A DNA stretch of 64,000 bases, from NCBI RefSeq assembly GCF_000003815.2, contig NC_049980.1, positions 4,110,370 through 4,174,369 on the forward strand, given 5' to 3'. This document shows, piece after piece, positions 8,881-51,778 of the stretch. Position numbers and translations under genes: made by a program. The notes under the pieces are model-generated. The model worked only from the letters and a program-made list of their open reading frames with translations. It made no database searches and had not been told where the DNA came from. Position 1 is the first letter of the stretch. Each line of letters starts with the position of its first letter. Origin of the DNA: Branchiostoma floridae. Its lineage: Eukaryota > Chordata > Leptocardii > Amphioxiformes > Branchiostomatidae.

Positions 8881-10797
8881 CTAGTCATGACCTTTCCAAT
8901 CACGTTCATTGCTTTGAATCCAGATCCATCGTGATGAGCGTCCTGCTTCTTCTGTTAGTCTTCTGGTAGCATCTCTCCTCTTTTTCCCATTTACACCAAC
9001 TGCTCCTAGTGCCTTCCACACTGACTGGCCAATAAAGCCTCTGGTCCCGACCTCCACTGGGAAGCATTGTGTCTTCCATCCTTGGTCTTTGCAATTCTGA
9101 ACAAGTTCCTGATACTTCAAGGCCTTTCTTTCATGGGCTTCCTCTAGTCTCTCTTCCCATGGAACAGTCAGTTCCAGAAGGACTACTTGCTTTGTCTGAC
9201 TTGACTTCAGGATCACCTCCGGTCTTAGACTTGTTGTTACTACTTCTTCTGGAAAGATCAACTTCTTGTCTAGGTCGACTTGTAAGACCCAATCTTTTGC
9301 TGTGTTGAATATCCCTATATCTTTCCCTCTTTCCTTCTTTCCTTTCCTCGCTTCCCCCTCTCTCAAGAATCTGATGAACTGCGGCCCCTTTCTGACCTGT
9401 TGCTTGTTTCTCGTCCTTTCCTCTTCAAGCACTGCTGCCAATACCCTCAGCACCTTGTCGTGCCTCCACCGGTATCTTCCTTGGCTCAAGGCCACTGGGA
9501 ATCCTGACAGAATATGGCTCAATGATCCTCTTTTACCACACAGGCCACAGTTCTCCTCTTCTTGCATCCCCCACATTTTCTTGTTTGCTGGAGTGGGTAG
9601 AAGATTGTACACTGACTTAAGGAGGAATTGCAATCTCAGGGGCTCCCATCTGTTCAACTCTTTCCGCATTACCTTTCTGTCTTTGACTCCTTCCCATCTA
9701 GTCCATGCACCCTGACTACCTTGACTCACTGCCTGGGCCCTTCTAACTTCCTCCTCTTTCCTTCTAGTTTCTCTCTGTACCATGTCCCTTCTCTCTCTTG
9801 ACCCTGCTGTGCACCAGCTCTGGTGGTCAGTTTTCCCTGCTCCTAATCCCAGTCTGCCTTGGGCCACCACTCCCACTATGTCGCGATGTCTAAAACTACT
9901 CTTGGCCTCTTGTACTGCCTTTGCCACAGACCACTTCCGTCCTGACCTCAGTTCCACGCCTGTCTGACTGACATTTTCATCCCTACTCCCCTCTAAGGTC
10001 ATCAGGGCCCTTGTCTTGCACACCTTGAACTCTTCCACTACTGAGGTGAACGGTAACTGCAGTCTCGCCGTTCTGCTGTATAGGCCTAGTCTGGTAAAGC
10101 TTGGTGGGAGCCCCAGCCACTTCCGGAGATGTCTGCTAATCTTCCTCTCGACTTCTTCCACTGTGGTAAGGGAGATATCATACATCGTCATTGGCCATGT
10201 TATTCTGGGCAGCAGACCATACTGGTAACACCAGACCTTGAATTTCCCTGGTAGTTTGCTTTCTTCTATTGCCTTCAGCCCTTGGTTAACTTGCTGTCTG
10301 AATTCCTTTATGTTGTTCTGGTCTCCTAGTGATTTGTCAAACTTCTTACCAAGGCTTTTTATCGGTTGTTCGGTTACTGAAGGTATTCTTTCTCCTTGAA
10401 TTTCCAACTGGATCGTATTATTCAATCTTCCCTTCCTCACTACCAATCTTCTACACTTTCTTGCTTTAAACTTCATTCTTGCCCAGGTTGCGGCCTCCTC
10501 CAAACTCTTGAGCATCCACCTAGAACTCAGCACACTCTCAGTTGTGATTGTAAGGTCGTCCATAAAAGCCTTTAACGGCGGCTGTCTGACTCCCGAACTT
10601 TTTTGGGCCTCTACTCTGGCGCATAGTTGGCTTCATGACAAGGTTCATCGCTGCTACGAAAAGTATCACTGAAATTGTGCATCCGGTTATAATCCCCCTC
10701 TGTAGGCTCTGCCAAGCTGTAGTGTTCCCATTGACTGTGAATCTTATCTGTAGACCGTCCAGGTACTGGCTTATCACTCTAATACTTTTAAGGTCTG
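8881..10797 (-). pseudogene. Non-LTR retrotransposon RT + RLE polyprotein, truncated and frameshifted
   Basis: Decayed LINE ORF encoding the distal reverse transcriptase and C-terminal restriction-like endonuclease. Read leftwards from 10797, the RT palm shows GITGCTISVILF and, after a frame change, the catalytic box FMDDLTITTES at about 10563. A 560-codon open frame follows. Near its residue 338 is CGLCG followed by SHILSGF: a CCHC-type finger in which the last Cys is replaced by Phe (TTC). Near residues 446-480 are RPEVIL, ELTVPWE and KALKY, matching the order of a PD-(D/E)XK nuclease, with the first Asp replaced by Glu. This architecture (RT, CCHC, RLE at the C terminus) belongs to the R2/NeSL/Hero group; the exact clade is uncertain. 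The frameshift lies in an A6 run at about 10596-10603. The 5' end stops at about 10797, inside the RT, as in typical 5' truncation. Dead copy. Confidence 0.9.
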
Positions 10798-26924: not shown

Positions 26925-27345
26925 TTATCATCATGGTGATGAAGAGCGGCCCATAGCGATAACTGTAGCAGCATCTCTTCTCCCTAATTCAGAAATATCA
27001 AGCTTAAGCAAGCTTGACTTCACTGACTCAATAGGCGAAGCAGGGGTTACGAGGCTGCTCGGGAAATTCCCTACCCTATTTTGGCCGGAATGGTTTGATC
27101 CGCCACATCGCACCATCGCACATGTGGCGGGTTCTTTTACGTGCCCGGGGTGTGGCTCTCCCCAAACACGGGACCTCCATTTAACGTCCTATCCGACGGA
27201 CGACTCATTTTCACTTGAGTAAAGTGAGGAAAGTCGTGTAAAGTGCCTTTCCCAAGGGCACAAGACCGGCAACACGGCAGGCGGATTCGAACCGGCGACC
27301 TCTCGGTCACGGGCCGAATACACTACCACTGTGCTACGCGGCCCC
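26925..27345 (-). mobile_element. Full-length tRNA-derived SINE
   Basis: Read on the minus strand from 27345: a tRNA-like head with A box TAGCACAGTGG and B box GGTTCGAATCC (27283-27293). Then GTCTTGTGCCCTTGGGAAAG, CTCACTTTACTCAAGTGAAA, GGATAGGACGTTAAATGG, CGTAAAAGAACCCGCC and AACCCCTGCTTCGCCTATTG, and a short ATGATGATAAC tail. The 3' segment recurs at 49862-49920. The anticodon arm is not that of a functional tRNA. This is the best-preserved SINE in the window. Confidence 0.85.
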
Positions 27346-30197: not shown

Positions 30198-31610
30198 ACA
30201 GAATATTTATCAACAGGAGCTACCGAGCCAGGATTATTCGTAAGAACTTTTTGAAGAAAGGCAAGGTCAAAGACTTACAAACCAGATTCCAAGAACAGAT
30301 TGCAGGGAAGGTAAGTTAGACGTACACGGCACACAGTGAAATATTTATCACTAGAGTCTGCCGCGCTAGGATTATTCGTAAGAACTTTGTGAAGAAAACC
30401 AAGGTCAAAGACTTCAAACCAGAGATTTGAAGACCGATTGCAGGGAAGGTAGGTTAAACAAAGACAGCACATACAGGAATATCTATTGATTGGAGCTTCC
30501 GCGCCAGGAGTATTCGTAAGGAGTTTGTGAAGAAAACCAAAGTCAAAGACTTACAAATAAGAGTTTTTTAAAGACCTTACTTACTTAGACTTAGGGGCTC
30601 CCGTGTCGTCCGACACATGAGGTAGTCAGGTTGGCCCAGCAAGCTCTGTAGACAGCTATCCTCTTTACATCTCTCCAGTTGATGTTAGCTGTTCGGAGGT
30701 CTCTCTCGATGGTCTGTCTGTAATTCATCTTAGGGCGACTTCTACGTCTCTTTCCCCGTGTTGCCAAGTGCATAACTTGGAATATATATACTAGTATGCC
30801 AGTCTGTCTGGTGGAAGTCTCATGACATGGCCCAAACAGCTCAAACGCCGCTTTCGAATGTTCACAGACACTGTTTTTTGGCTGGTCCTATCTCTTACTT
30901 CAGTGTTGGGTATGAAGTCATCCCATCTGATGCCTAGTATCTTCCTTTTGAAGACCGATTGCAAGGAAAATAGGTTAAACGTACACCTCACACAATGGAA
31001 TATTTATCAACGGGGTCTGCCGCCCTAGGATTATTTGGACTTTGTGAAGAAAGTCAAGGTTAAAGACTTACAAACCAGATTCCAAGAACAGATTGCAGGG
31101 AAGTTGAGTTAAACGTACACGGCACACAGTGGAATATTTATCACTAGATTCTGCCGCGCTAGGATTATTCGTAAGAACTTTGTGAAGAAACCCAAGGTTA
31201 AAGACTTACAAACCAGAGATTTGAAGACCGATGGTGTGGAAGGTAGGTTACACGAAGACAGCACATAGAGGGATATTTATCAACAGGAGCTGCCGCACCA
31301 TGATTATTTGTAAGGACTTTGTGAAGAAAACCAAGGCCAAAGACTTACAAACTAGATTCCAAGAACAGATTACAGGGAAGGTAAGTTAAACGAAGACAGC
31401 TCATAGAGGGATATCTATCAGCAGTGGCTACAGGATTATTTGTAAGGACTTTGTGAAGAAAATCAAGGTCAAAGACTTACAAACCAGAGTACGATTGCAG
31501 GGAAGGTAGGTTAAACGAAGACAGCACATACAGGAATATCTATCAAGAGGAGTCACCGCGCCAGCAGTATTATTCGGAAGAACTTTTTGAAGAAAGTCAA
31601 GACCAAAGTG
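30198..31610 (+). repeat. ~135-bp tandem array with exon-like units
   Basis: About eight units, landmark GATTATTxGTAAGxACTTTxTGAAGAAA, near 30240, 30378, 30517, 31037, 31171, 31310, 31442 and 31576 (spacing 132-139 outside the insertion). Better units are open from AATATTTATCA to GGGAAG and then read GTAAGT. Unit 1 translates as IFINRSYRARIIRKNF then KVKDLQTRFQEQIAGK, directly before the donor-like GTAAGT. Units 2 and 3 carry stops. The array is split by a LINE fragment at 30578-30948. I do not recognise the encoded peptide. Confidence 0.85.
30578..30948 (-). pseudogene. LINE ORF2 C-terminal tail inserted in the array
   Basis: The minus-strand frames carry KILGIRWDDFIPNTEVRDRT, RRLSCLGHVMRLPPDRLAY, and (one frame change later) HLATRGKRRRSRPKMNYRQT and RDVKRIAVYRACWANLTT. 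LGHV-R-PxDR followed by GKRxRxRPxxxxR is the well-known post-RT tail of several LINE clades. The 3' end carries a CTAAGTAAGTAAG-type microsatellite. Diverged flanks TTTTTAAAGACC (left) and CTTTTGAAGACC (right) look like a target duplication within the satellite unit. Confidence 0.8.
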
Positions 31611-35573: not shown

Positions 35574-35579
35574 TTTATT
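35574..35579 (-). terminator. Candidate poly(A) signal of the spliced gene
   Basis: AATAAA on the minus strand, about 150 bp past the stop codon at 35725. Position is plausible; cleavage site not determinable. Confidence 0.4.
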
Positions 35580-35724: not shown

Positions 35725-35795
35725 TTATCTTCTAAGGTAAACCGCTGAGATAACGGAGCCCGATGACCTCCTGGATGAATCACTGTCAGGAGAAC
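35725..35795 (-). CDS. Exon 5 (terminal) of the spliced gene
   Basis: Acceptor TTTTTTTCAG directly precedes GTTCTCCTGACAG. The exon completes a split Gly codon, then reads SPDSDSSRRSSGSVISAVYL, two Arg and stop. The preceding pyrimidine tract is strong. A low-complexity Ser/Arg tail. Confidence 0.75.
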
Positions 35796-38700
35796 CTGAA
35801 AAAAATGGTTTCAGGATCAAGAAAAAATTGTGAACAGTCACATAAGAACATCTTATGATTTACGTCATAAAAGAACGATCAAAGTTATCAAACTGTAAAG
35901 GATCCACATTTCTTAAGTTGTCTTTCTATCAAAGACCGCTAGACGGAGTTTCTGCACAGGGACACCGTCTCAGTCATAGAGGCCGCCTTGCAGAAAGGTC
36001 AACCTTTGCCGGTTGACAATAATCCTGCTGTCATAGTGTAAGCTAGCTAGGAATGGGTACCGGCACAGAAAATTCAGGTCCAGGTACGGCCTAGGTCCAG
36101 AAGATCAGGTCCAGCTCCGGACCTGAACCTGGACCTAACAGTCTGTGAAAACTTGTGGGCGATACTCAAAACAATGGTCCATTTCCCTACAAAGGAATTT
36201 GTTTGGTAGAGTATCCGGCGTCCATTTCTTAATCGTTTTAAAAATCCTATCTTCATGTAAACAACACTAACTGCTATTGTTTTATACCAAGTTTGACTGT
36301 AGAGACTCTGGAAAAAGGACTAACAACTCTCCCCTACTTCGCTATTGTTATTATCTTTGACATGTAAGCCCCTAAACACGCCCCAGAACACCTGCCGGTA
36401 TGATCTGTTCATTTTCGTATCGGTCCAACATCCGGTCTACTGATTTTTTCAAGTCGGGTTTCAACCATTACTTGACAACGCACCTTTCCCGTCGGACTCC
36501 GCTGTTCTGGTTCATTCTACTACAATATCGTGCGAGTCAAAACTTCAAACCGTGCAGAAACGCCTCCTTGCGCTTTCTGTTTGCTCTGTACCATTCATGT
36601 ATTTGATTTTGTTCACTTGCAATTAGCCCCATGGGCATGAATTTGCAATAAAACCTTACAAAACGCTAGACAGCGTACCTTTCCCGTCGGAATCGGCGGT
36701 TCTGTCGGATCCTACTTTAAAACAGTGCGATTCAAAACTCCCGCCCGTACAGATACGCCTCCTTGCGGTTTCTGTCTGCCCTGCACCATTAGGCAACGTA
36801 CCTTTGCCGTCGGAATCGGCTGTCCTGTTGGATCCCGCCGTCCTGTTCTTGCGGAATATGCGGAGCCGCTGTTGCCAGGGCCGCTCGTGCACAAAGCCGT
36901 CCGGACTGCTGTATTTGTACTCGTACTCCGAGGAGAAGGGAGCTGTAGGGACAAATAATAGAATGTTGGAGACCTCAAGACAGTGAGCCACTACTGTAAG
37001 TCTCAACCAGACACCTTGGATTAGTGATAGAACGAATAATGTAACTGTGAAAATTGCACATGTTGTAAAGGTAAGGCATTTTCTACAACTGCCTTTCTAC
37101 TGAGGACCGCTAGGTAGCATTTCTGCATCGGTACAGTCAGTCATGCCTTCGACTGACAGACAGACAGACATGCAAACAGACAGACAACAAGACAGACAAA
37201 CAGATAGGCGAACGGACAGAAAGCTAGACAACCAACAGACAGACATGCAGACAGACAGACAGTCAGGAAAACAGACAGATAGAGGAAACAGACGGACAGA
37301 CAGACAGGCAGGCAGACAGACAGACAGGCAAGCAGACAGACAGGCAGACAGACAAACAACATACGGACAGACAGTCAGACATACAGGCAGACTGCTAGAC
37401 AGACAGACAGGCATGCAGACAGACAGGTAGACAGGCAGACAGACAGACAGACAGATAGACAGACTAGCAGACATGTAGATAGGCAGACAGACAATCAGTC
37501 ATGTGGAGACAGGGTATGCAGACAGAAAGATGGACAATTACACAGAAACAAACCAAAACACTACCTACTCACAATTTAAGGATTATTAAAGCATCCTGGT
37601 GATAGTGGGCTAGTTCTACCAACAGTCATTCAACAGGTCCACAAACAAACAAATAGTGGTGCGTACCTAAACTCAATTTCAGGTTCAGGTCCGGACTTAT
37701 GGTGCATATTAAATTGCATGTAAGCATGAATTGAAATGCAATGTGAAAAATACATGAAAATGATAGACAGCCAGTGTAAACACGAACTGTTTTTTGTCTT
37801 TTTCCAGTGCAAATTTCTCTGTCTATGGATGGTTTTAGATGGTTTAGAACGAAAAAAGGGAATATAAGTGTGACAGATTGCTATTTGCAAGTCCGGACTT
37901 GGCTCCAGACATTTAGTTTTTTTTTTTTGGACTTGGACCTAAACATTTTTAGGTCCAATTCCAAGTCCGGGCTTTAGGTACGCACCACTACAAACAAACA
38001 AACAGACATTATTTTTACTCACTGATGAACTTGAGCGTCCTGCTGACAGTAGGGTAGATCTGAGAAGAGTCGTTCAGCAGATCCACGTGGTCTGTCGGCC
38101 GCCGCTTCAGTTTGTCCAGCGGGAAAGGATTACCGAAGTGCGAGAAGCGGAACAGACCTGGGAAAAACGGTTAGATTTTTATTTCAGCTTTTAGTTTGCA
38201 TTGTAATTTATGAGTACAGTAGTCCTCATTGTTGTCTGTATAGATTGACAGACAGTAGTAGTAGTAGTTGTTGTTGTGGTGGTGGTGGTAGTAGTAGTAG
38301 TAGTAGAAGTAGTAGTGTAGCAGCAGCAGTAGTAGTAGAAGTAGTAGCAGTAGTAGAAGTAGTACTAGTAGTATAGTTGTATTTTAACTTTATTGTAATA
38401 CAGTAAACAGACATGTATACATCATTTTTCAAGCTTGTTAAACTTGCAATAATACATCCAAAGCAACATTATCATAATGAAAATACAATAATAGTAATAC
38501 ACAAATGTATACATGTAAAATGTGAGTCAACAAAGCGTAAAAAAGGTAAAGATTGAAATTACTCAATTTGCTAGGAAATATATCAATTTTTGCTCCAATT
38601 CCAATTCAGAGTTTATTTTACGATGACTACACCCTTGGAAGCTTGTAAGACTTTGATTTCTTTTGGATCGGACTGTCTAAGAATTACTGTAGGAATCTGA

Positions 38701-41365
38701 AATTTCACATGTACAATGATAAATGTCTCTATAGGTAGCATGTGAGTTTCCACGTTTACATCAGTTTCAGAGCTTATGTCGACAGCCATCCTACTCCCTG
38801 AACACGTAATGACTCTCCCCTTAATTGTCTTCTCCACCTCCCCATGTGTAATGAATCTCCCCTTACTTGTCTCCTGTGTGGAAAAAGCCTCCCGCGCGCT
38901 CGTGGCCTTGAGCGGAGGTTTGGGCGGCCAGCGCCAGTAGTTGTAGCTGTAGCGATCGGCGCTAGGGGTCGCTGCGGACTTCTTTGACCTCTTCTTCCGG
39001 TCGGCGTTTCTGCCCGAGTTGTCCTGTTTGGGTCGTGACAATTGGAATCAGAAATTGTCACAGAAAACCTAACGATATCCCCTCTCATGATCTGTTTAAA
39101 GATTATTTCAGGTACTGTAAATGCATTTAAGTTCGCGGGGATTTAATTTCGCGGTAGCGGGAAAAAGGACTTTTCGCGGTGGTTTTAATTTCGCAGTAGC
39201 ACCATGCACTGTAGTATCTTAATGCCCTCGAAAATGTTCGCGGTGGTTTTAAATTCGCGGTGAAATGGCCAACGCGAAAACCGTGAACATAAATCCACCG
39301 CGAACATTTCTGCATTTACAGTATTGTCTCCGTTCTCATGAGCTCGTAAATAGGCTTTGTTTTGAAGGGGAAAGAATTTGTAAATACCCCACATTAATTG
39401 CAGTGGAAGACGAAATACATTCTATGCCCCTGTAACGACTAGTAAAGAAGAGAGCTATCTAAACAGGCCTCCAAAGCCTACTTAATACAAAAAAAGTGGG
39501 CACTTTGGCTTCCAGTACCATTTGTTGAAGAAGTCAACACCAAAATCTTAGATTGTAGTTCGTAGCCGTCCATATTGCAGTAGTCACTTGTTCCACTTGT
39601 CACCATTTAAAGTCCTATCAGAGGGACGCTACCAAAAGCTAGGTACCTGTTTTCACCTGAATAGTATTAGCAAAATTCGCGTAAAATTACTTTCTCACGG
39701 GGACAAAGTCAACAAGGCATATCGGGAGATTCTAACCCAAGGCCCCTGGTACATGGTGTACGGGCCAAATGCCCTACCATTACGCCACAATGCACGACTA
39801 GGCCACATAACACCTGTGTTGAATTTCCCATTCCTTGCTATATTAAAAGTGATTTACAAAGATTGGCAAAGGCTTGTTGACAAAGTCCATAAATAGATAA
39901 GTAACGTTAACCGCCAAATATTCGAAGTTGTTACCCTTGTGAAACATTGAGCTTGATCTCCAGAAGTCTAATCATGTATTTTTCAGTTATCAACCTCTGT
40001 CGTTGTATTGTTATTATTTTCTTTATCGTTATTTACTGTTTTTGATGTTAGACTTCTGGAAGAATAGATTAGTTAATTCTAATCTCATGAATTTCGAATA
40101 AACATCAAAGATCAGATAAATTTTCTTACCGTTTTTCTCTTGACCCGGGAGCGCTCGTCTGTCCAGTCCAGTAGGGGCAGGGTTGTAGGGGCGATGACAC
40201 TGAGGGGGGACAGAAACCGTGTTAGAATGTCGTAAAATTTGTGACAAAAATCCCTCTGCAATTCTAAAACTAGCCGCTAGTGAGGCAAAACTTGCATCAC
40301 TTCTTTCGGAGCACATTATAGCTATCTACTACCCCAAAATCGTGACCATGATATGTCCAGAACACGAGATGTAAAACAACTGTAATATTTCACTAAACCA
40401 CGCCTGTTTGCAAAAGACATTTGTCACCAATGGTCGAAAATTTATCCCCTAAAATTATCCCCTTAAATTTTTTTTTCAATAAAAGGGCAGCATTTCTTTC
40501 TCTCTATAGTTTCAGAGAGGACTCCTGGCTAAATATAGGATACCCGAAACAAAGCTATATTTCTTTGACAAAAGGCATGCCTAATGTCATGTTGTATTCA
40601 TAACTTCTAGATTTGTTATGTCATCAAACAGCCAAACACAGAACACCGGTAGCAAAACAACAAACCATGGATATATATACAAGTTCATGACTTGCTTTTT
40701 ACAACCTTTCCGTGTCACTTAAGGCCATGTTTATCCGATTATATGGATGACATCCACGCTAGCATCAATTTTCGCCCCCCCCCCCTCAAAAAAGTTTTTT
40801 CGACTACACTGTAAACCACGCCAAACAGCTACTGCAAACTGGGGAAATATATGCGGTAGATATGTGCAAATGGAGTATCGAAAAACGTACTAATGTCGTA
40901 GAATGTCTAAGTCAAAGTTCGGTATACCATAATCACGAATAAAAGTTCAAACAAACAAACAAACAAACAAACAATCTTTAGGAAAGGCCTACCTATATAT
41001 AACAACCAAACATTCACGAAAGTACGCTCATGAATTCTCATATCATTCTATCATAAAACAAGCAAGAGTAAACAAACAAAGTATGAGATCGCGTTGGTAG
41101 TAAAATTAAAACAGTCAATTAACTACCCATATCTATAAAGCAGTACTCTTTCGCCCCTTTCCCCCCTTGTTTCATAAAAATCGGTGATTTAGAACAGTCC
41201 GAAGATCCTATAACGTCCTTCCTTGTACCTGATGTCTGTCCCACCGTCGTCAGGGAGTGGCCCGTTGTCCCGTAAAAACTGCACCTGCTTCTTAAACTCG
41301 TCCTGGGCGTCGTCCTTCTCCATAACCATAGCAACGGCCTCGAAGTCTAAGCCGTTCTCTGCCAT
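35725..41365 (-). CDS. Spliced gene, unrecognised small protein (gene span)
   Basis: Minus-strand gene assembled from exon borders. Three downstream exons (38157-38023, 36942-36802, 35795-35725) all have AG/GT borders, join with consistent phase (each junction splits a codon after base 1) and run to a TAA at 35727-35725. Upstream, exon 40199-40130 joins the 38157 exon in phase. A start-codon exon (41365-41229) opens next to a CpG-rich region. Its GTAC donor leaves two bases, which does not fit the phase-0 start of exon 2, so the first junction is unresolved: an unseen exon, another donor or a sequence error. The assembled protein is under 200 residues, soluble, without signal peptide or membrane segment. 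It has a conserved-looking middle (FRFSHFGNPFPLDKL) and a Ser/Arg/Asp-rich tail. I do not recognise the family. Introns contain MITEs and microsatellites. Confidence 0.75.
36048..36460. mobile_element. hAT-type MITE, truncated
   Basis: Left end TAGGAATGGGTACCGGCACA with the GGTCC/GGACC-rich subterminal block. The interior near 36415-36450 (CCAACATCCGGTCTACTG) matches the 6655-7086 element inverted, but the distal terminus is missing. It lies in intron 4 of the spliced gene. Confidence 0.7.
36484..36801 (-). repeat. Tandem duplication of exon-4 end plus donor
   Basis: Minus strand: the last ~33 bases of exon 4 and the start of its intron recur at 36801-36679 (period 123) and, with an insertion, at 36604-36484. 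In copy 2 the sequence GATCCGACAGAACCGCCGAT runs to GACGGGAAAG, preceded by TAG and followed by GTACGC. That is a possible 33-nt, phase-1 mini-exon coding GSDRTADSDGK. Copy 3 has TGA in the same frame and a GTGCGT donor. About 65 bp resembling a LINE 3' tail (GGGCATGAATTTGCAATAAA) separates copies 2 and 3. Confidence 0.7.
36802..36942 (-). CDS. Exon 4 of the spliced gene
   Basis: Acceptor TTTGTCCCTACAG, donor AAAG/GTACGTTG. 141 nt: two bases completing a Thr codon, 46 codons, one base. It reads PFSSEYEYKYSSPDGFVHER, then PWQQRLRIFRKNRTAGSNRT and ADSDGK. GC-rich relative to the flanking introns, as expected for an exon. Confidence 0.8.
37155..37500 (+). repeat. (CAGA)n microsatellite
   Basis: About 345 bases of CAGACAGA-type words in intron 3. 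It gives Thr/Asp/Arg-rich and Cys/Leu/Ser-rich spurious ORFs. Confidence 0.97.
37654..37990. mobile_element. hAT-type MITE with exact 18-bp TIRs
   Basis: TAGTGGTGCGTACCTAAA at the left and its exact inverse TTTAGGTACGCACCACTA at the right. Flanked by CAAACAAA at 37646-37653 and 37991-37998, an 8-bp duplication (in simple sequence, so some chance overlap is possible). The subterminal GGTCC/GGACC words link it to the 6655 family. It lies in intron 3 of the spliced gene. Perfect termini suggest a recent insertion. Confidence 0.85.
38023..38157 (-). CDS. Exon 3 of the spliced gene
   Basis: Acceptor TTTTTCCCAG, donor ATCA/GTGAGT. 135 nt: two bases, 44 codons, one base. It reads LFRFSHFGNPFPLDKLKRRP, TDHVDLLNDSSQIYPTVSRT and LKFI. 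The strongest single exon in the window by composition, borders and phase. Confidence 0.85.
38249..38377 (+). repeat. (GTA)n / (GTT)n trinucleotide repeat
   Basis: GTAGTAGTA with GTT, GTG and GCA variants, in intron 2. Confidence 0.97.
38867..39023 (-). CDS. Candidate alternative exon of the spliced gene
   Basis: Inside an open frame running 39041-38613 on the minus strand. Border candidates are acceptor CCCAAACAG/GAC at 39024-39026 and donor ACAA/GTAAGG at 38866. With these borders the exon is 157 nt (52 codons plus one base). It starts in phase 0 and ends in phase 1, exactly like exon 2, so it would also join exon 3 in frame (split Ser codon). It reads basic (ADRKKRSKKS) then Tyr/Trp/Pro-rich (YSYNYWRWPPKPPLKATS). 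Alternatively the whole 39041-38613 frame (ending VLQASKGVVIVK) is a separate intronless coding segment. The acceptor lacks a good pyrimidine tract. Confidence 0.4.
39115..39321. mobile_element. Tc1/mariner-like MITE, complete
   Basis: CTGTAAATGCATTTAAG at the left, inverted GCATTTACAG at the right, TA on both sides (39113-39114, 39322-39323). The interior is rich in TTCGCGG/CCGCGAA. Same family as 1-133. In intron 2 of the spliced gene. Confidence 0.85.
39595..39800 (-). mobile_element. tRNA-derived SINE copy
   Basis: Minus strand: GTGGCGTAATGGTAGGGCAT (A-box-like), GGGTTAGAATCTCCC (B-box-like), then GTGAAAACAGGTACCTAGC and a degenerate body. The head is better kept than the tail. Confidence 0.65.
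40130..40199 (-). CDS. Exon 2 of the spliced gene
   Basis: Acceptor GTTTCTGTCCCCCCTCAG (strong pyrimidine tract), donor AACG/GTAAGA. 70 nt: 23 codons plus one base. It reads CHRPYNPAPTGLDRRALPGQ, EKN and a Gly codon split with exon 3. Frame is fixed by the join to exon 3; the other frames hit a stop there. Confidence 0.75.
40723..40930. mobile_element. Harbinger-type MITE (type 2), left-end fragment
   Basis: GGCCATGTTTATCCGATTAT then ATGGATGACATCCACGCTAG and ACACTGTAAACCACGCC, as in the left part of the 6113 and 47722 copies; a C tract at about 40775-40785. In intron 1 of the spliced gene. No right end. Confidence 0.65.
41229..41365 (-). CDS. Exon 1 (start codon) of the spliced gene
   Basis: ATG at 41365-41363 in the context AGAATGG (A at -3, G at +4). 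It reads MAENGLDFEAVAMVMEKDDA, QDEFKKQVQFLRDNGPLPDD, GGTDI, then AG before GTACAAGG. Acidic start, coding-like composition. The GTACAAG donor leaves two bases, so direct joining to exon 2 (phase 0) breaks the frame. An upstream donor CAG/GTGCAG after DEFKKQ would give phase 0. Without splicing the frame ends at a TAA at 41189, giving 58 codons. Linkage to the downstream exons is inferred from position and strand. Confidence 0.6.
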
Positions 41366-41780
41366 TCTGGACGATTTTTGTTGCTGTTGATAGGTCCGTT
41401 GCTACGGCAACACGAAGTGAGTCGTCGAAGTCCTAAGATCGAGCTAGCCTGTTTGCGTATTTTACGGAAACTGTACACTTCCCTCGAGGTAGGTCCGTTG
41501 TTGCACCGGGAGGTTCCGCGATACTTCCTCGGCGTTGACCCTCGTCCGCTCCCGAGAGGCGCCCATGCAAGGCCCGGTGGCGCGCTACTTCGGATTCGGA
41601 CGACTGGTCAAACACTACAGCCTCTGGACACGGTGGTCAAGCGTCTGTGTGCTGTGTTGGCCACGGTTTGGTTTATAGGATGGAATTCCACCACTGGATA
41701 CAACAAGGCGATAACCCAACCCCACCAACGCCGTGCCACCACTGTTATAAAGGCATTGAAGCGCGGCAAATTTTGACATA
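41366..41780. promoter_or_regulatory. CpG-rich candidate promoter
   Basis: The region directly upstream of exon 1 is markedly richer in CG dinucleotides than the surrounding AT-rich sequence (GGTTCCGCGATACTTCCTCG, CGTCCGCTCCCGAGAGGCGC, GTGGCGCGCTACTTCGG). No TATA box seen at the expected distance. This is the composition expected of a TATA-less, possibly bidirectional promoter. Confidence 0.45.
41565..41678 (+). CDS. Possible small divergent ORF
   Basis: ATG at 41565 in the CpG-rich region opens 37 codons, beginning MQGPVARYFGFGRLVKHYSL, on the strand opposite to the spliced gene. An overlapping frame continues with a hydrophobic stretch (LCAVLATVWFIGW). Size and composition resemble small mitochondrial inner-membrane proteins, but I cannot assign one, and a frame change or intron would be needed to use both parts. 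Speculative. Confidence 0.2.
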   Translation: MQGPVARYFGFGRLVKHYSLWTRWSSVCVLCWPRFGL

Positions 41781-43220
41781 AACACCGACTCTGTTTACCC
41801 ACACATAAACCCCATTTTGGCACTTAAAACACCCCAAACACACCACTCACACACCTGCTGTTGTTACACCTGTCTTACCTGGGCCCTCTGTGATGCACGG
41901 AAAAGTCTTTCCTGTGAGTGGTAATCATCTTGCAGACAGTACGACGATCTAAATTCTAATGGTATACTGTAAAGAGAGTCCTATTCCTTCTAACCTAGTA
42001 TTGGGGACGACGAAGTATTTTAATGTACTAAACCACGCGATCCAACCCTCTCTGTTTATACCATACATTGTCTCTACGTTGACATGTAACCAAACCCCCC
42101 AGTTTACATACAGTAGGTGGTTATTTATATAACCGAATCCGATCTTTTAAAAAACGCAATCCAGTGACCGTGGGTCATACACAATGCTATACGAAAGCTA
42201 CACTAGATAAAAAGTACTATAAATGATGTGTATTGAAGAGGATGAATATGATATTGTAAGGGATATAACGATTGACCTATATATGACAGGGCTAGTTCGG
42301 AGCCATCTGAGTTTGTTACAAGTTATCTGCTACGCTACGATGGCCATGAAAAAGATGTCCATACGTCCCATTCACTCTCGTCCGGACGGGGTGACTATGT
42401 AAGCATGCATTTGTAAGCGACACCTGTTGACTTAGTGTGGTACTGCGGGTAGGGTAACCGCGCAGGGTCGCGGGTCAGGGCTAAGGTAGCCCCGCCAACA
42501 GACAGGTATGCCACCCCGCCATTGTTAACGGGAAAATCATACTTTATACAGCCGTTCTGGTGTTTGTCTTTATAATAAAAGGAATTTCTGCTCTGCGACA
42601 GTTAATATGTTGTTTACCGTTCTACGCGCTCTATATAGAAAAGGGCCGTCTTTTCACTGAGGGTATTATTAGTAAGTGTTCTCAATGCAGAAGACCACTT
42701 TATATATGATATGATATGACAGCTATTATAGCTATATATCGGTACGTAATATTGCTACTTACGTATACAACGGATTTATATATCAATCTACAAACCCATG
42801 TAATTCATATACATATGGCTAGCGTAGTTCTTATTGGCGCATGATGTTATTTGTGTTTGTAACAAAATTACATTGCTTCGTAAATTGTTGTTTATCATTA
42901 ACGAATCACTATCAAAGCTCTTTACTGTATTGACGTTTTTGTTATCTTTGAATTACCAACAAATCCCTCCAGAAAAGAGAATTCGTAAAGCATAAAACGG
43001 GATATATATTTCCTCAGCACTCATCAATTGTTGTTGCTGCCATGACAACCGTCGTCATGGTAACGTACCGCGCTCTGCTCACGATTGCGCAATCATGTGA
43101 CCTGTAGCACTTGACCCACGCAGGGTCAGAACGTATACATGACTTGTTTATTTTCTTTAAGACGTTTAAAGATTCGAGGTGGGTGTTCGGGCCTAAGACC
43201 TTGAGGCAGGTGTACTTGGT
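41781..43220. other. No supported gene
   Basis: AT-rich. Nothing recognised on either strand. Confidence 0.4.
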
Positions 43221-51706: not shown

Positions 51707-51778
51707 GGCTCGCTGGTCTAGTGGTATGATTCTCGCTTAGGGTGCGAGAGGTCCCGGGTTCAATTCCCGGGCGAGCCC
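51707..51778 (+). tRNA. tRNA-Pro (anticodon AGG)
   Basis: 72-nt cloverleaf. The acceptor stem GGCTCGC (51707-51713) pairs fully with GCGAGCC (51771-51777), with discriminator C. The D-arm holds the A box TGGTCTAGTGG. The anticodon stem CTCGC/GCGAG encloses TTAGGGT, giving anticodon AGG at 51739-51741. The T arm CCGGG-TTCAATT-CCCGG includes the B box GGTTCAATTCC (51757-51767). No intron; all stems are perfect. It reads proline CCU (and, after A34-to-I editing, CCC/CCA). It stands alone, 26 bp upstream of a foldback transposon. Unlike the SINE heads in this window it has no degenerate positions, so it looks functional. Confidence 0.97.

Follow-up and report, generated by a model that had tools for sequence, protein, structure and literature searches.

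A six-exon gene model from Branchiostoma floridae with an X-box-like palindrome upstream of its start codon and a possible ciliary role

The gene considered here lies in the genome of Branchiostoma floridae (assembly GCF_000003815.2), within a stretch of 64,000 nucleotides of contig NC_049980.1 (positions 4,110,370 to 4,174,369 of the forward strand). This whole stretch is hereafter called the window, and all positions are counted from its first letter. On the minus strand, from 41365 to 35725, a first-pass annotation had reported an unrecognised spliced gene whose start exon could not be joined in phase to the exon that followed it. With two exons that had been overlooked, six exons are joined into 711 nt, i.e. 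236 residues and a TAA stop codon, and a palindrome resembling an X-box, the type of site associated with RFX factors, is found shortly upstream of the ATG (Table 1).

Table 1. Features of the gene model and of its immediate surroundings
Feature	Position	Strand	Remarks
X-box-like palindrome (RFX-type site), GTTGCCGTAGCAAC	41398..41411	-	32 bp upstream of ATG; fits RTNRCC N1-3 RGYAAC
Second strict-consensus X-box match	41322..41335	+	inside exon 1 (coding)
Exon 1	41229..41365	-	ATG with A at -3 and G at +4; donor CAG/GTACAA; phase 2 out
Exon 2	40130..40199	-	absent from the first-pass list; phase 2 in, 0 out
Exon 3	38867..39023	-	absent from the first-pass list; phase 0 in, 1 out; weak acceptor
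Exon 4	38023..38157	-	contains FRFSHFGNPFPLDKL; phase 1 in and out
Exon 5	36802..36942	-	phase 1 in and out
Tandem copy of exon 5 end, with donor	36679..36711	-	possible 33-nt mini-exon (GSDRTADSDGK) or alternative donor
Third, decayed copy of exon 5 end, followed by a donor	36484..36509	-	84.6% identity over 26 nt, E 0.007
Exon 6 (terminal, stop TAA)	35725..35795	-	in phase; less certain
AATAAA, polyadenylation-signal-like hexamer	35574..35579	-	146 nt past the stop; first one after exon 5

Exon structure and the first junction

The four exons of the first-pass annotation are found where it had placed them, with GT and AG at their intron borders, and phase 1 is recovered at the entry to 38157 as well as at the junctions 38023/36942 and 36802/35795. 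The clash that it described is real, since exon 1 (137 nt up to the donor after 41229) ends in phase 2 whereas 38157 requires phase 1. Of the three explanations that had been offered, namely a missing exon, the use of another donor after the residues DEFKKQ, or an indel in the sequence, the first is the best supported, the missing exons being two in number. Exons 2 (70 nt) and 3 (157 nt) restore the phase throughout with the sequence unaltered, so that an indel in exon 1 or 2 is not needed. The intron phases then read 2, 0, 1, 1 and 1, the five introns all have GT-AG borders and measure, from 5' to 3', 1029, 1106, 709, 1080 and 1006 nt, and the joined frame contains no internal stop. An in-frame TAG is present upstream of the ATG, at 41404.

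Models were compared with approximate splice and codon tables, built on human usage with a softened CpG term, the resulting bit scores being relative only. Among five models of the first junction, the full exon 1 followed by both new exons is the best, with 103.0 bits (55.0 after a cost of 8 bits per exon), against 87.0 (39.0) for a donor at 41245 combined with a short exon 3 and 75.2 (35.2) for a direct join to 38946. The donor after DEFKKQ, at 41285, would act with exon 2 either skipped or lengthened; both forms are open and in phase, and the donor itself scores 1.6 against 0.5 for the one after 41229, the lowest value among the three donors listed for exon 1 (the third having 2.8). The totals of these two forms are nevertheless lower, at 82.6 (42.6) with exon 2 skipped and 90.0 (42.0) with the longer exon 2, which makes the use of 41285 in place of 41229 improbable, although the form lacking exon 2 is possible as a minor isoform. 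The 41229 donor is thus chosen despite its low score because the coding scores carry the choice. As for the other ways of filling the gap after 41229, in which 26 candidate exon readings were found and three pairs satisfy the phases, the best repair with a single exon from this donor was 38946-38867, with 13.8 bits versus 41.6 for the chosen pair, and the route through the phase-0 donor gave at best 24.5 with a single exon (39023-38867) and 31.9 with a pair.

The locus also stands out when the window is searched blindly. In a scan of both strands for internal exons that kept splice scores above 2 (and thereby lost exons 3 and 4), exon 5 ranked first and exon 2 second among 32 non-overlapping internal exons. 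A chain search at 8 bits per exon, in which splice scores of 0 or less were dropped and the full exon 3 with them, placed the best chain of the window at this locus with a score of 48.5, the runner-up reaching 11.5; in shuffled windows, the maxima for the best chain were 20.3 with 500-bp blocks and 25.2 with 200-bp blocks (60 shuffles each, blocks containing N being kept unshuffled). The cost of 8 bits was settled on once a trial at 3 had been seen to over-chain: that chain ran to 23 exons, among them exons 2, 4 and 5 and the mini-exon of Table 1, and used the 41229 donor, but it lacked exon 6. All shuffles of the chain search were run at 8. The best blind chain has the exact borders of exons 2, 4 and 5 and parts of exons 1 and 3, and does not include exon 6. 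It enters exon 2 from the 41245 donor and in a frame other than that of the model, the acceptor of the full exon 3 being below the threshold, and the loss of this exon from the search also explains why the chain scores less than the hand-made model (48.5 versus 55.0).

In each of exons 1 to 5, the frame of the model outscores the other two in codon score. It is the sole stop-free frame in exons 1 and 4 and one of two in exon 3, all three being open in exons 2 and 5. The coding score of exon 3 (20.4 bits) is the highest of the six exons, its acceptor scoring about 0. The GC content is 0.574 in exons, with 0.726 at third positions, versus 0.398 in introns. That the locus is no functional gene, its open stretches being chained by chance or deriving from a decayed copy or a mobile element, is very improbable in view of the shuffle tests, the presence of introns, the lack of internal stops and the absence of further copies within the window. 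In this last respect, matches of the exons to a repeat family at many loci had been named beforehand as evidence that would speak against the gene; within the window, local copies of the exon 5 end aside, the six exons have no other match with an E-value better than 0.27. Taken together, these data indicate that the predicted spliced, protein-coding animal gene is almost certainly genuine, and that its first five exons very probably have the exact structure modelled here.

Terminal exon and duplicated end of exon 5

The consistent junctions downstream of the phase clash had been put forward as strong internal evidence, which is overstated for the last one. The coding score of exon 6 is the poorest in the model (-4.0 bits, another of its open frames scoring 0.0), and 32 in-phase terminal exons with an acceptor score of at least 0 exist within 3 kb; the 12 best listed have higher totals than exon 6, and 4 of these 12 have better acceptors (4.7, 4.8, 3.1 and 3.2). 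Besides, the blind chain picked 36122-36091 as its end. Exon 6 is favoured because its acceptor is T-rich and because the first AATAAA after exon 5, which is thus the nearest one, lies a short distance past its stop. With a score of 2.8, this acceptor exceeds those of the three top-ranked alternatives (0.9, 0.2 and 0.0), and in frame length exon 6 exceeds 11 of the 12 listed candidates. Exon 6 as modelled is therefore held to be probable, with clearly less assurance than the first five exons, and a coding end elsewhere, at 36711-36656 read to its stop, at 36122-36091 or in an unlisted exon, remains a minority reading of appreciable weight.

The region between exons 5 and 6 contains a local duplication. 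The last 34 nt of exon 5 are repeated 123 nt downstream, at 36712-36679, with 88% identity, and a donor follows the copy as well. Read as a mini-exon, with an acceptor of 0.0 and a donor of 4.2, the copy would add 11 residues and keep the frame. Used as an alternative donor, it would give an exon of 264 nt with an in-frame extension of 41 residues, these 41 codons scoring -2.4 bits and looking non-coding. Since the models with and without the mini-exon score level (54.9 and 55.0 after exon cost), the sequence alone cannot separate these two forms. Ahead of the third, decayed copy, the sole AG acceptor tested scores -5.4.

Encoded protein and family searches

The predicted protein has a mass of 26.98 kDa, an isoelectric point of 9.66 and a grand average of hydropathy of -1.01. 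It is basic, rich in serine (11.9%) and arginine (10.2%), devoid of cysteine, and probably largely unfolded. The label "unrecognised" given to the gene was apt. No Pfam family is matched by the whole protein at E<=1, and when the protein was searched in two pieces, EB1_binding (E 0.18, 12.8 bits for a cut-off of 25) and Surp (E 0.17, 12.4 bits for a cut-off of 21.1) both remained below their cut-offs. The PDB yielded a single match at E<=10, to a putative protein kinase (E 2.2 with the whole protein, 0.68 with a piece), which was judged to be due to chance. Collections of viral contigs (27 pattern stretches, none confirmed) and of bacterial and archaeal contigs (85 pattern stretches, none confirmed) gave no relative, but these collections are not animal and say little on this point. 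No paper on the gene was found, as judged from titles and the starts of abstracts, and the gene being nameless, no search by name was made. To our knowledge, no human orphan cilium protein bears a defensible resemblance to it.

As a control of the PDB search, the sequence of a human ciliary protein was used as a query. Three distinct chains were found, including some named C20orf85 and Ciliary microtubule inner protein 1, which shows that axonemal proteins are present in the library searched; the most distant of them (E 3.3e-07, residues 15-63) belongs to entry 8snb, a sea urchin sperm structure.

In terms of general appearance, the predicted protein resembles the small axonemal microtubule inner or associated proteins of the CIMIP1/C20orf85 type in being small and basic, in reaching no Pfam domain and in carrying short aromatic/basic motifs; unlike them, it has no significant similarity to any solved chain. 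The properties of this orphan protein would fit a structural component of the axoneme, and its promoter is plausibly ciliary.

Upstream site and the question of a ciliary role

The least degenerate X-box consensus is RTNRCC N1-3 RGYAAC, and palindromic X-boxes are over-represented among RFX-regulated fly genes, according to PMC2375033. A distance of at most 250 bp upstream of the ATG was taken as the positional criterion from PMC1794439. The upstream palindrome of Table 1 has this consensus within this distance, and in this respect the gene is like the RFX-regulated ciliary genes of animals, which have an X-box match close upstream of their ATG (PMC2375033 and PMC1794439). The strict consensus occurs twice in the window, at the two sites of Table 1, for a mean of 1.13 per window in block shuffles. 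At least one strict match is present somewhere in the window in 340 of 500 shuffles, but within 250 bp upstream of the ATG in 2 of 500; the position of the site, more than its presence, is therefore unusual. The fuller palindrome GTTGCCNNRGCAAC is present once in the window, at this very site, and was found anywhere in 7 of 200 shuffles.

Two further observations were made around this site. Two X-box-like sequences, GCTGCCATGACAAC and GTCGTCATGGTAAC, are found one base apart at 43036-43064. They lie about 1.7 kb upstream of the gene and may represent a distal element or the promoter of another gene. On the plus strand, an exon-like stretch at 41394-41488, followed by a good donor (5.5), overlaps the X-box-like site, and the promoter may thus be bidirectional.

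In the light of these features, the gene is given an even chance of encoding a protein of the cilium or flagellum, perhaps bound to microtubules. Expression in ciliated cells or sperm would be switched on by an RFX factor, and the gene would encode a small structural protein lying on axonemal microtubules by means of its short aromatic/basic motifs YSYNYWRWPPKPP, FRFSHFGNPFPLDKLKRR and PWQQRLRIFRKNR, microtubule binding then depending on such motifs and not on an enzyme domain. A more specific and unlikely version is that of a lineage-restricted axoneme component, without relative among the solved axonemal proteins, whose C-terminal region would be lengthening as the end of an exon is duplicated in tandem along with its splice donor, in-phase isoforms carrying one or two GS(N/D)RTADSDGK units.

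A function outside the cilium, for instance as a basic, disordered protein of the nucleus or cytoplasm encoded by the same gene structure, falls just short of an even chance; the palindrome would then be a chance match or serve another role. The basic run KKRSKKSAATPSADR, as read from the translation, could serve as a nuclear signal. Several other points likewise weigh against the ciliary role. An X-box of the loosest consensus in one species is no predictor of RFX control, according to PMC2375033, and this consensus has 117 matches in the window, a count made without shuffle comparison. X-box-like sites show no excess across the window (15 versus 13.79 expected in one count, 9 versus 6.81 in another), strict matches somewhere in a shuffled window are common, as stated above, and a site with 11 of the 12 palindrome bases was present in 33 of 300 shuffles. 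The X-box test was moreover picked after the sequence had been seen. The distance of the candidate site from the ATG falls slightly short of the range preferred in worms (PMC1794439), in which the site differs from those of RFX-regulated ciliary genes, and the site could lie within the 5' untranslated region. Finally, the PDB search, which does recover relatives of a known axonemal protein, detected no significant similarity between the predicted protein and the solved axonemal ones. What speaks for a ciliary role over these points is the placement of the palindrome so near the ATG, rarely seen in the shuffles.

Elsewhere in the window, a minus-strand open frame of 583 codons at 8884-10632, with RVT_1 (E 0.015) and zf-RVT (E 0.011) both below cut-off, is probably a retrotransposon remnant. 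A tRNA-Pro (AGG) is predicted at 51707-51778 on the plus strand by both ARAGORN and Rfam, and a weaker tRNA match at 27272-27343 on the minus strand by Rfam only (35.8 bits). Tandem repeats of 42 bp occur in three places between 20672 and 24669, around two larger arrays of units of about 425 bp, and a 138-bp tandem repeat is present in 2.6 copies at 30198-30557.

The outcome is mainly one of annotation, in that a puzzling phase clash is turned into a complete gene model. The duplicated end of exon 5 also illustrates, on a small scale, how alternative exons that keep the frame may originate and, if the ciliary role proves true, the gene would add one more candidate to the orphan proteins of the cilium or sperm.

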